Shown in pieces: positions 31,012-35,174 of a DNA stretch of 64,000 nucleotides. Source of the stretch: Zychaea mexicana (Eukaryota > Mucoromycota > Mucoromycetes > Mucorales > Lichtheimiaceae); NCBI RefSeq assembly GCF_025766255.1, contig NW_026516669.1:682001-746000 (forward strand), written 5' to 3'. The translations under genes were made by a program, and so were the position numbers. A model generated the notes under the pieces. The model was not told the DNA's origin, did not search any database, and was given only the letters and a program-made list of their open reading frames with translations. Position 1 is the first letter of the stretch. The number at the start of each line of letters is the position of its first letter.

Positions 31012-31525
31012 GGTTTTCTAATATGTTGTTTATGTTGGAATGAAGAGTAGAAAGGAGCGAGACGAGCAAAGCAAGAAAAAAGGGCGAAGGCTATTTTATA
31101 TTAACTGTCCAGACTGGTTGGAATCGCCATATTTGGCGAAGTTAGCTGACATCATTTTCATTTCACGTGTGGAAAAGGCTGCAATAGCTGGCATGTGAAT
31201 ATGCTGAAAGGACTGTATGCACTATATTTTCACTTGACACTATGAGTACGTACTAAACGCTCATACTTGCTATAGTACACGATCTGATTAGGTGCCTCTG
31301 TTCTACGTCAGAGATCTTTCCAACAATATCCTCTCTGTCATCTATATAACCGCCTCCACATTTTCAGCGTATCGCATCCGAAGAAATCATTTACGTTTCC
31401 TGTGGGGCATGACAGAATACAATTGACCTCCGATGTTCTACTACTTCCCTCTTTGGTCTCTCACAACCCCCACCCCGCCACCACCACCAAGACCGACTCT
31501 CTGTCCGCGCTTAGTATATAACCTT
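31012..31525. other. divergent promoter region of acyl-CoA oxidase and BRL1
   Basis: 514 bp between two genes transcribed away from each other. An in-frame ATG at 31433 could extend BRL1 by 31 residues in a proline-rich reading, but 31526 is preferred. No other feature was seen. Confidence 0.5.
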
Positions 31526-32471
31526 ATGCACGAGCCGTCTGGCAAACGACGGAAAACTAGTCATCCACAACCGCCTGAACAAACAACTTCTCGATCCTCA
31601 ATCCTTTTCTCTCCTCATGGCCCTCTTATATTTTCAGGGTAAGCACCTCATAGATGCACAAGTGCATGTCGCAAAACTCATCCGTCACAAATCGTTTCAT
31701 ATACAGTTACTTAAAATTGTTGCTACATGCTTGTGGCCTACTCATTTTACTACTTGCAATCGGGTTCATCGTGAGTGCGTCACACCGAGAAATTGACGGA
31801 CGCGTCACGCAGCACATTCGAGGTTCGTACAAAACGGGATAAAGAAAGTGACAGCTGAAGAAAGATAATGTGTGGTTACTACTAATTTTACACGTGATAT
31901 TTACATCGAGCTAACACAATCATAAACGACGAATGACGAACGGAACTATAATCAGACCTAGAGGAGGAGAAAATGCAATGCGCACAGAAATATCGAGAGA
32001 ACCAATGCGATCTATACGCTCACCAACCCTTTTTTGGCACATTTTGCAACCAATGGGAACAATATCCTTTTTTTTTCCCTTAAAAAAGCTGATGATATAT
32101 TCCCCCCTCCACCCATCGCGATGATATTAAGCCTTAACCAGAATGTCTTAAGAAAATACGTGTATGAAGCGTGATCTTCGAGGAATCGGCAGGTAAACCC
32201 TCTGTGATTCGATGGACTTAATAGAAAATAACACACCTTGCTGCTATGCATACTTTAGAGCCAAAATTACAATGACAGTCTATGGAGAGCTTATCAATGC
32301 CCTCGTGGAACCGCTTACTGTCAAAGCAATGGTAATCTAAGCGATATACACAAATAATGTCAGAGTGATAAGATACGCATATAGAGTTATACTTACTGGT
32401 AAACTATTTCTTAGTTAACGATCTGTCTTTTGTTATTTGGTATCTTTGTCGGCTCTACGCTCGCTTTCTAA
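31526..32471 (+). CDS. BRL1: Brl1/Brr6 nuclear-envelope protein
   Basis: Exons 31526-31638, 31707-31822, 31956-32061, 32160-32192, 32259-32331 and 32415-32471 encode 165 residues. The Brr6_like_C_C domain is complete. A membrane segment follows YLKLLLHACG. Four conserved Cys are Cys85 and Cys94 (CAQKYRENQC) and Cys107 and Cys113 (CNQWEQCMKRD). The family block GRAK..ELINALVEPLTVKAM leads into a second hydrophobic stretch ending in a C-terminal Phe. Brl1/Brr6 proteins act in the inner nuclear envelope in pore biogenesis and lipid homeostasis. Introns 1, 2, 4 and 5 are GT-AG (68, 133, 66 and 83 bp). Intron 3 fits only an AT-AC U12-type intron. The gene converges on SF3B2, 128 bp between stops. 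Confidence 0.85.
32062..32159 (+). other. U12-type AT-AC intron (BRL1 intron 3)
   Basis: 98 bp starting ATATCCTTTT and ending AAATAC. The first nine bases equal the AT-AC U12 5' consensus. CCTTAAC at 32132-32138 matches the U12 branch-site core, with its adenosines 22-23 nt from the 3' end. Removing this segment restores codon Gln112 (CA+G) and joins the two halves of the conserved WEQ-CM motif. No GT dinucleotide occurs between 31956 and 32143, so a GT-AG donor is not available. Confidence 0.85.
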
Positions 32472-32599: not shown

Positions 32600-35174
32600 T
32601 TAAAACTTAAATTCTCTCTTTTTGCCTTCCTTCTTGCTATCCTGCGATCGCATCTTTTTCGCTTGTCGGCCAGCAGCATGCTCGGCATACATATCAGACA
32701 GATCTTCATCCGCACCCGGTAATTTAGACTTCATTTGCTGTTCGTACTTGGCACGCAGCGTGGATTCATCCAGTCCACTTTCCAGCTCACTTGGATCGAT
32801 GGCAACATCTACATTCTCACCCATCTTGCGCTTGGATGACCGGACGGTACCAGCAACCGATGGTGCTTCACCCTTCTTTTCGACCGTCGACATATCATAG
32901 CCGTGCTGTGAACCCATGTAACCCGAGATATTCTTTTGCACTTCAGGAAGAACCTGGTACAATTGTCGCGACTGTTGTTCGTCCTCTTCTTCATCTTGTG
33001 ACCGTCGTACGTCCTTGCGCAACTCGATAAAGTCGGGTGTTTCCAATCCAGAAGCAACAGAGGTCATGCCAGAAGGCGTAACAAGACCTTCTTTAAGTGC
33101 TTCGTCGCCTTGTGCTTGTTCTTCCTCTTCGTTCTCCTCCTCTTCTTCTTCCTCCTCCTCTTCCTCCTCTTCCTCTTCTTCGTATTCTATATGGATTTGC
33201 GATAAAGTTAGTCACCAAACAAAAAGTTCACATGGTTGCTAGAGTCGTTAGTTATCTACCTTCTTCGGACTCCAATTCACCCCACAAGTTCTTTTCAACC
33301 GGTTCCACAATCTTTTTTATGGGTCATAGGGGAAGATAAAATCACATTAGTAAAAGGATGATCCTTGATTGACCTCGATATACTCCAATTAATATCTTAC
33401 CTCTGGAGGGGCAACCTCTTGTTGGGTCACACCGAACACATCACCATATAACGGTCGATTGAACTTTTTTCATATTAAAATAGGCAAGACGTGTAAGTAT
33501 TGTTTACCATCTTCCCAGTTTTTGCCTCGTTTTTGCATGATTGACCCCTCTTACCTCATCCACAGGTGGTCTACCCCAACCGCCAGGATGGTAGCCCCAT
33601 TGAGCTCCATCGGGTATAGGCGAATTCAAGCCAGCAATCTTCAAGGTTGGGTAGCTGGGCGGAGGGCCGTACCGCTGCATATTGATCAGCCATGGTGGAG
33701 GCGCCAGTGGTGGCATATTAAGCGCAGTTTTTAAATCTTCAGACAAATGTCCTGGCTTCTTTTCCTTGAGCTTGGTCTCAAACTCTTTACCTTCGTAATA
33801 CCTTACAAATGTCAAGCAACAATTAGCATTTTATTGTTTTACATCAAGATAACAACAACCTCTTCGCATTGCGAAGGGTACCGACTTACAATTCACCGTG
33901 CATTGTCACCTTTGGCTTGCTTTGGAATCTAAAGAACGCATCGTGCAATTTTTGGTAATCGATGTCTAGTTTGCCCATTTTAGGTGCCACACGCTCGCGT
34001 GTCTTTGACTTGAGCTTGGCTGCATCTTCTTTTTCTTTTACTGCATCACGCATCTCCATGATACCCGTGTCCTTGATAAAATCTAGTGATCATCTGTTAA
34101 CTACCATGTCCTATTTCTCTCTCTCTATCCCAAGCCCAGCCCACCATAAAGTTTCTCCCCCTTCTACTTACCAGGCAGTTCCCACGGTGGTTTCTCAATA
34201 CCACGCTTTCCCTGTAGATATTTTCGCTTTTGACTCCAATGTGCTGGTACAGGAACGGTGTTACGGTACGATTTGAGATTTACCAAAAGCTTTGGATCTG
34301 CGGCTGTGACATCCCACCACTATAAAAAAAAAGTAGTTCAGCAAGGTCAAATGCAAACCAAATACCCTAATCACTATCATCGTGGATATATGTTTTACCT
34401 CGACAGCTTCTGGCTTCTTCACCAACTGCTTTAATTCTGCCACGTCCAGACGCTGCAGTTTCTTGAGTTTCTTTTTTGACAATGGCTGATCTGAATGGAT
34501 CTCCTTGTCATCGTCGTCAGAGTCGTGATCGGCGTCTTCATGTTTTACTTTGTCCTCAGTAGCAGTGGTCTCGTCTACTTCTGCTCCTTCGTCTTTTTTG
34601 ATTTCAATCTAAATGATAGTCAACAAGGGTATCAATAATGATTATGTGTATGCGAAAAAGAAATAAATTGGCAGAACGTAATCGTTTGACGCGAAAATCT
34701 TCTTTTCTCTTTCTTTCTCCTTAGATTATGAATACCTTTTCTTCGGCTTCATCATTGCCAATCTGATAATGCTTAAAGACGTCAGAAATTTGTTGAAGTA
34801 AATCTTGGTCTGCATTTGCCAATGATTCAACGTTTTTCAAGCTTTCGGCGTCGACGGATTGAGCAACGTATTCAATTTCGACATCTTTAAGTGAATCGTC
34901 TCGTTCCGAGCTTCTACTCTCAAATTCCTAGATTAAGAAAGATAACACAACAATTTTTTTTTAAATACAGGAAATGTGATTAAATATTGCACGAAATTAT
35001 TGTAATGTGTTTATTATATTTTACCTTTCGCCATTCAGCTTGTTCTTGTTCACGTTGCTTTTTTGACTTTTTCCGCCTTCGCTGACGAGTCAAATTCTTA
35101 TTTACAGCACCATTGGTTTTCTCTATCGCACCATTGTTGGGGTTGTTGGCGTTGTTTTTGGCTACCTCAGCCAT
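32600..35174 (-). CDS. SF3B2: splicing factor 3B subunit 2 (SAP145/Cus1)
   Basis: Nine exons: 35025-35174, 34736-34927, 34399-34608, 34172-34319, 33890-34082, 33555-33801, 33401-33463, 33260-33311 and 32600-33186, 613 residues. After a Lys/Arg-rich N-terminus comes the DUF382 core (WWDVTAADPKLLVNLKSYRN, VPVPAHWSQKRKYLQGKRG). The PSP domain follows (KPGHLSEDLKTALNMPPLAPPPWL, then YPTLKIAGLNSPIP and GWGRPPVDE). A poly-Glu run and the LYQVLPE block end the protein. It is the U2 snRNP SF3b component that contacts SF3B4 and pre-mRNA near the branch site; SF3b is also part of the U11/U12 di-snRNP. Start set at MAEVAKNN. Confidence 0.93.

Follow-up and report, generated by a model that had tools for sequence, protein, structure and literature searches.

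A BRL1/BRR6 orthologue and its convergent neighbour

The window analysed here, a stretch of 64,000 nt from the genome of Zychaea mexicana (C262:682001-746000), contains an orthologue of the nuclear-envelope gene BRL1/BRR6 on the forward strand, followed by a convergent SF3B2-like gene on the reverse strand. Joining six exons across four GT-AG introns and one AT-AC intron yields a product that is identical, letter for letter, to the deposited Z. mexicana protein P0001, and the borders of the gene listed below are those of this join.

31433..31638, + strand: exon 1 of the BRL1/BRR6 gene; the ATG at 31526 encodes the second Met
31639..31706, + strand: intron 1, GT-AG, 68 nt
31707..31822, + strand: exon 2, with a hydrophobic segment
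31823..31955, + strand: intron 2, GT-AG, 133 nt
31956..32061, + strand: exon 3, last residues ...FCNQWE-CA
32062..32159, + strand: AT-AC intron, almost certainly U12-type, 98 nt, phase 2; the only recognised splice pair, of the cuts tried, restoring CNQWEQCMKRD, its junction also present in P0001
32160..32192, + strand: exon 4, G-CMKRDLRGIGR
32193..32258, + strand: intron 4, GT-AG, 66 nt
32259..32331, + strand: exon 5
32332..32414, + strand: intron 5, GT-AG, 83 nt; absent from the model that stops at ...KAMVI
32415..32471, + strand: exon 6 including the stop, LTICLLLFGIFVGSTLAF
32600..33830, - strand: section of the SF3B2-like gene that converges on BRL1; its ORF at 33504-33830 has a PSP domain scoring 78.2 bits

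The Brr6_like_C_C domain (PF10104) spans the AT-AC junction with a Pfam score of 90.4 bits (cut-off 25), and the motif CNQW..CM.RD is unbroken in the proteins of three relatives (P0002-P0004), the comparison with these relatives being one of proteins only. An earlier reading of this DNA from its sequence alone had proposed the same AT-AC junction, which stands, within a gene model that is shorter at both ends than the deposited one: P0001 has an upstream ATG and an additional terminal exon. The junction codon, Gln112 when counted from the ATG at 31526, is accordingly Gln143 in P0001, which starts 31 codons upstream. Because AT-AC introns are seldom proposed by gene finders, we infer, from the junction itself rather than from any record of the prediction, that the model of P0001 drew on transcript evidence.

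The PSP domain bears out the earlier naming of the neighbour as SF3B2. This protein is a subunit common to both spliceosomes, and its adjacency to BRL1 is probably a matter of chance.

Sequence and borders of the AT-AC intron

The intron starts with ATATCCTTTT and ends in ...AAAATAC, and the two A residues of its CCTTAAC motif lie 23 and 22 nt ahead of 32159. The start motif at 32062, the place of CCTTAAC and the AC terminus had all been reported by the sequence-only reading, and on rechecking each detail was as described. When 32061 is joined to 32160 the result is ...FCNQWEQCMKRD..., which restores Gln112 and fuses CNQWEQ to CMKRD, as had been claimed and as is found in P0001; without splicing, the frame of exon 3 meets a stop six codons beyond the junction codon. 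Within the intron, three elements can be distinguished:

32062..32076, + strand: U12-type 5' splice site, consisting of ATATCC and then nine T, with complementarity to U11 (GG after up to 8 A) and to AAAGGA of U6atac
32132..32138, + strand: U12-type branch site CCTTAAC; the candidate branch A is 32136 or 32137, and GUAAGG in the U12 candidate is able to pair with the motif
32139..32159, + strand: 21-nt spacer and AC acceptor; two AG nearer the branch (ending at 32141 and 32152) are unused in P0001

A possible explanation for the AT-AC ends is that they are an annotation error, or that the true intron is of the GT-AG or GC-AG kind with different borders, for which the GC dinucleotides in exon 3 might be thought to offer donors. 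But there is no GT anywhere from 31956 to 32144, and the first one beyond the beginning of exon 3 occurs at 32145 (the claim had been that none occurs between 31956 and 32143), and therefore neither exon 3 nor the first 83 nt of the segment contains a GT donor. In a scan that combined all donors from 31956 to 32149 with all intron ends lying at least 30 nt downstream and no further than 32199, CNQWEQCMKRD was restored by three cuts (AT-AC, TA-CG and AT-GT), which represent a single junction slid by 0-2 nt. Among the cuts tried, AT-AC is the only recognised pair that restores the motif, and it is the one present in P0001, which leaves other borders very improbable.

The signals of the intron are those of the U12 class. 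For the 5' splice site of this class, /RTATCCTTT, the intron offers ATATCC and nine T at 32062; its branch site GCCTTAAC is one letter away from the U12 consensus TCCTTAAC and lies 22-23 nt before the intron end; and of the two kinds of matched termini, AT-AC and GT-AG, it has the first. It lacks a distinct polypyrimidine tract, its spacer being 38% pyrimidine (71-82% in 4 of the 11 other introns described below). The branch-to-acceptor distance of 22-23 nt is beyond the optimum of 11-13 nt and within the range of -40 to -5 by which PMC2846911 classified U12 introns, and a short distance is an important, not a definitional, property of the class. A second and weaker branch-like motif, TCTTAAG at 32146-32152, has its A 8-9 nt from the intron end and may serve as the branch site instead. 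Across both strands of the window there is a single instance of RTATCCTTTT, 14-74 letters, CTTRAC, whereas 200 dinucleotide shuffles gave 0.005 on average.

Components of the minor spliceosome

From the AT-AC intron, the sequence-only reading had gone on to propose that this organism retains a working minor spliceosome, naming four snRNAs and the 65K, 35K and 48K proteins as the components to look for. The genome assembly (50.34 Mb in 305 contigs) was searched for the snRNAs with Rfam families and their gathering cut-offs, alongside 14 control genomes. Two of the four RNAs are over their cut-offs. U11 is encoded at C232:324205-324340 with 72.7 bits (gathering 39), and 3 of the 14 controls matched at E up to 10, none of them over the cut-off. 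U6atac lies at C262:166089-166232 with 55.4 bits (gathering 33) and contains AAAGGAGAGA; no control matched at E 0.001. This U6atac gene is on the same contig as the BRL1 intron, about 548 kb apart, which is probably coincidence.

The third RNA is represented by a candidate below the cut-off. The putative U12 at C295:483548-483686 scores 33.9 bits (E 0.00101) under a gathering score of 53, and matches at E up to 10, all below the cut-off, also occur in 7 of the 14 controls; it carries the branch-pairing UAAUGAGUAAGGA, a GGGUAACGCC loop and a U run like that of an Sm site. With the limit at E 10, RF00007 returned this candidate and a second match at E 6.95. At E 0.001 it returned no U12 match in the genome, a search that could not show U12 to be absent since none of the 14 controls matched either. 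A 20-letter core of U12, allowing up to 3 mismatches, gave 13 matches in the genome, none convincing, versus 14 in the control; and an alternative pattern would miss the candidate, because it specified GTAAGGAA where the candidate reads GTAAGGAT. U4atac was not found in the Rfam search of the genome: the best match (22.9 bits, E 1.9) was rejected because 11 of the 14 controls likewise match at E up to 10, and because, judged by eye, the pairing between its 5' end and U6atac is poor.

Two proteins that would act with U11 are encoded. For 59K, an ORF with a PDCD7 domain (27.4 bits, cut-off 27) is contained in the deposited protein P0005 (PDCD7 at 50.2 bits), and there are homologues in Fennellomyces and Phascolomyces. 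For 35K, two exon matches on contig C35 have 61% and 63% identity to the human protein, the first of them including one stop, at a read-through intron; the best solved match of the hand-assembled RRM is U11/U12-35K at 137.3 bits, compared with 108.8 for the best chain with U1-70K. Of the other proteins that had been named, neither was found: the C-terminal RRM of human 65K, used as a query, gave 8 genome matches that include a U1A/U2B''-like gene and PABP-like ORFs, and the 48K zinc finger had no match in the genome, a weak test in that 2 of the 14 controls matched, one of them over the cut-off. Non-detection of U4atac, 48K and 65K in these searches is not equivalent to their absence from the genome. 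With U11 and U6atac over their cut-offs, a U12 candidate, and 35K and 59K encoded, the proposal that Z. mexicana has kept its minor spliceosome is supported.

If these components act as they do elsewhere, U12 would pair with the branch site CCTTAAC, after U11 together with 35K and 59K had recognised the 5' site ATATCCTTTT. U11 would then give up its place there to U6atac, acting through AAAGGAGAGA. As acceptor the first AC beyond the branch motif would serve, the two nearer AG being skipped. The order of these steps is that of the known U12 mechanism, from which it is taken.

It might be possible for the major (U2) spliceosome to remove the intron, for AT-AC ends are not restricted to U12-type introns (review PMC3584512). 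But the two sites that define the class, the 5' site and the branch site, are both near-perfect U12 matches, and minor snRNAs and proteins are encoded in the same genome, so that removal by the U2 machinery is highly unlikely. The motifs, the sole recognised junction among the cuts tried, its presence in P0001 and the encoded components together make it nearly certain that 32062-32159 belongs to the U12-type (minor) class of spliceosomal introns, and to its AT-AC subtype, as the sequence-only reading had proposed. That it is spliced in the living cell we infer from its sequence, from the junction, from components recognised at the sequence level and from the same anatomy in other genes.

AT-AC introns in other genes and in other fungi

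Searched genome-wide, RTATCCTTTT..CTTRAC gave 37 rows, against 7 for a reversed-pattern control, and these correspond to 36 distinct 5' sites (33 AT and 3 GT), several of which must be chance given the control rate. The 3 GT sites were inspected, and none was provable as a U12-type intron. Another genome-wide pattern search gave 48 rows against 7 control rows; 13 of the 48 came from one coding repeat and were set aside, as were other coding-looking rows. This repeat, at C168:230844-241404 (loci L031-L040), is a coding-looking tandem array in which the spacing of most units is about 640 bases and every unit matches the intron pattern by chance in the same way.

With RTATCCTTT and CTTRAC there were 39 distinct candidate sites besides that of the window, of which 23 were sent to Pfam; the remaining 16 were coding-looking, had no convincing join, or were GT. 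The 24 introns (BRL1 and the 23 others) were thus run against Pfam with an AC acceptor, and half of them are supported by homology across the junction. Ten have Pfam support (BRL1, DCP2, CLP1, PIGB-like, FANCD2, VPS11, an RNB-domain protein, GAA1, MIOS and importin-9-like) and two, PPME1 and IPMK, are supported by solved structures, which also support the importin-9-like gene (IPO9). The genes are named after families or best matches, and we take the Alg9-like mannosyltransferase match to be PIGB. The other 12 of the 24 had no usable match; they include an intron in an NADPH diflavin reductase-like gene, whose solved match is weak (E 0.22) and stops before the junction. Comparison with deposited proteins covered BRL1 and IPMK, and the deposited IPMK protein, P0009, has the same AT-AC junction.

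Homology across a junction fixes the frame and not always the exact acceptor. Acceptors were chosen by taking open joins first and favouring AC, and those of PIGB, IPMK and IPO9 were changed after the family had been recognised. An alternative AG acceptor was scored for two genes only, in both of which AC did better (107.3 vs. 94.0 bits in DCP2; 119.5 vs. 113.8 bits in CLP1), and in-frame alternatives exist for some of the others.

All 12 homology-supported introns are AT-AC, all having been picked by strong motifs with a preference for AC, and their median length is 100 nt (n = 12). The T run following ATATCC has a median of 7 and a range of 4-12 (n = 12), its minimum being set by selection (at least 3 in the candidate filter, at least 4 in the stricter pattern). 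The branch motif finishes a median of 22 nt before the end of the intron (range 11-34; n = 12), which places the branch A at a distance of 12-36 nt (n = 12; median about 23), compared with an optimum of 11-13 nt for U12 introns (PMC3584512). The BRL1 distance had been described as a little longer than the usual optimum; longer it is, but this is not peculiar to BRL1, since the branch A is at least 22 nt from the end in 8 of the 12 introns. An AG between branch site and AC is skipped in 3 of the 12 (BRL1, CLP1 and IPO9), and a nearer AC is skipped in FANCD2, IPMK, IPO9 and PPME1. That BRL1 is a decaying gene with a broken or retained segment, or that the assembly is at fault, is the least probable explanation of all, with no observation in its favour, as the remaining gene is intact and conserved in three relatives and 11 other genes with homology support share the same intron anatomy.

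Nearly all minor introns found here, in one genome and by selection on pattern, seem to be of the AT-AC kind. Their T runs can pair with the 5' A run of U11, if its transcripts start that far upstream: AAAAAGGGC aligns to the 5' end of the family, and three further A precede it in the genome. The U11 locus (L041, 1491-1520) thus has eight A ahead of GGGC, three of them beyond the 5' end of the Rfam model. One tentative reading, somewhat less likely than not, is a lineage-specific variant of minor splicing in which the spliceosome would be near AT-AC-only, an extended 5' T run would be matched by a longer U11 A run, and a branch-acceptor spacing of about 22-30 nt would be tolerated or preferred, with AG passed over for AC. 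Both the AT-AC predominance and the long spacing may have been favoured by selecting strong motifs and preferring AC acceptors.

The second (minor) splicing machine has been lost from many fungi, and Rhizopus and Phycomyces, which retain it, are members of the Mucorales. As the sequence-only reading had stated, U12 introns are on record in early-diverging fungi: in Rhizopus and Phycomyces (PMC2846911) and in Rhizophagus (PMC10639083). Rhizopus oryzae and Phycomyces blakesleeanus share with Z. mexicana the U12-type splice and branch motifs, minor snRNAs, the AT-AC subtype and a place in the former Zygomycota, for which minor-spliceosome RNAs are already in print (PMC2846911). In the same paper, one of two methods, based on ESTs, counted 1 AT-AC and 2 GT-AG U12 introns for R. 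oryzae; for Phycomyces the numbers were 9 and 8, respectively. RPS13 has a GT-AG U12 intron in both fungi, according to that paper. Against these mixed subtypes stand the 33 AT and 3 unproved GT sites of our pattern search, some of them chance, a contrast that is a lead only because the methods differ. Rhizophagus irregularis, likewise early-diverging among fungi, has minor introns together with RNAs and proteins of the minor spliceosome; its 205 minor introns are described as having motifs closely like those of animals and plants (PMC10639083), whereas the strict pattern gave far fewer candidates in Z. mexicana (a lower bound), almost all of them AT. An enrichment of AT-AC also occurs in Blastocystis (77%, 196 of 253 minor introns; PMC10639083), where minor introns are very short (mean below 42 bp) compared with the Z. 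mexicana median.

A U12 intron in Z. mexicana is therefore not new in kind, its kin being already known to have them; what might surprise a specialist is that AT-AC predominates and that the spacing is long. In a literature largely without subscription papers, we found no paper naming Z. mexicana, none joining minor introns with Mucorales or AT-AC introns with zygomycete, and only PMC10639083 for minor introns, AT-AC and Mucor together; this survey of over 3000 genomes may include Z. mexicana.

With Z. mexicana, the Lichtheimiaceae gain a place among the fungi in which the second splicing machine is kept, its introns here lying in conserved genes, and gene callers restricted to GT-AG would break genes such as BRL1. 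Should the bias towards AT-AC and the long spacing hold, this genome would offer a natural test of two questions, why AC is the partner of AT and how the acceptor is found, which animal introns, mostly GT-AG with short spacing, cannot easily settle. The pairing of U6atac with U12, whose candidate starts UAGCCUCAA, may also differ from that of animals, because after GAGA (locus L001, 1521-1529) U6atac has UCUUUGGCA in place of the family consensus AGGUUAGCA.
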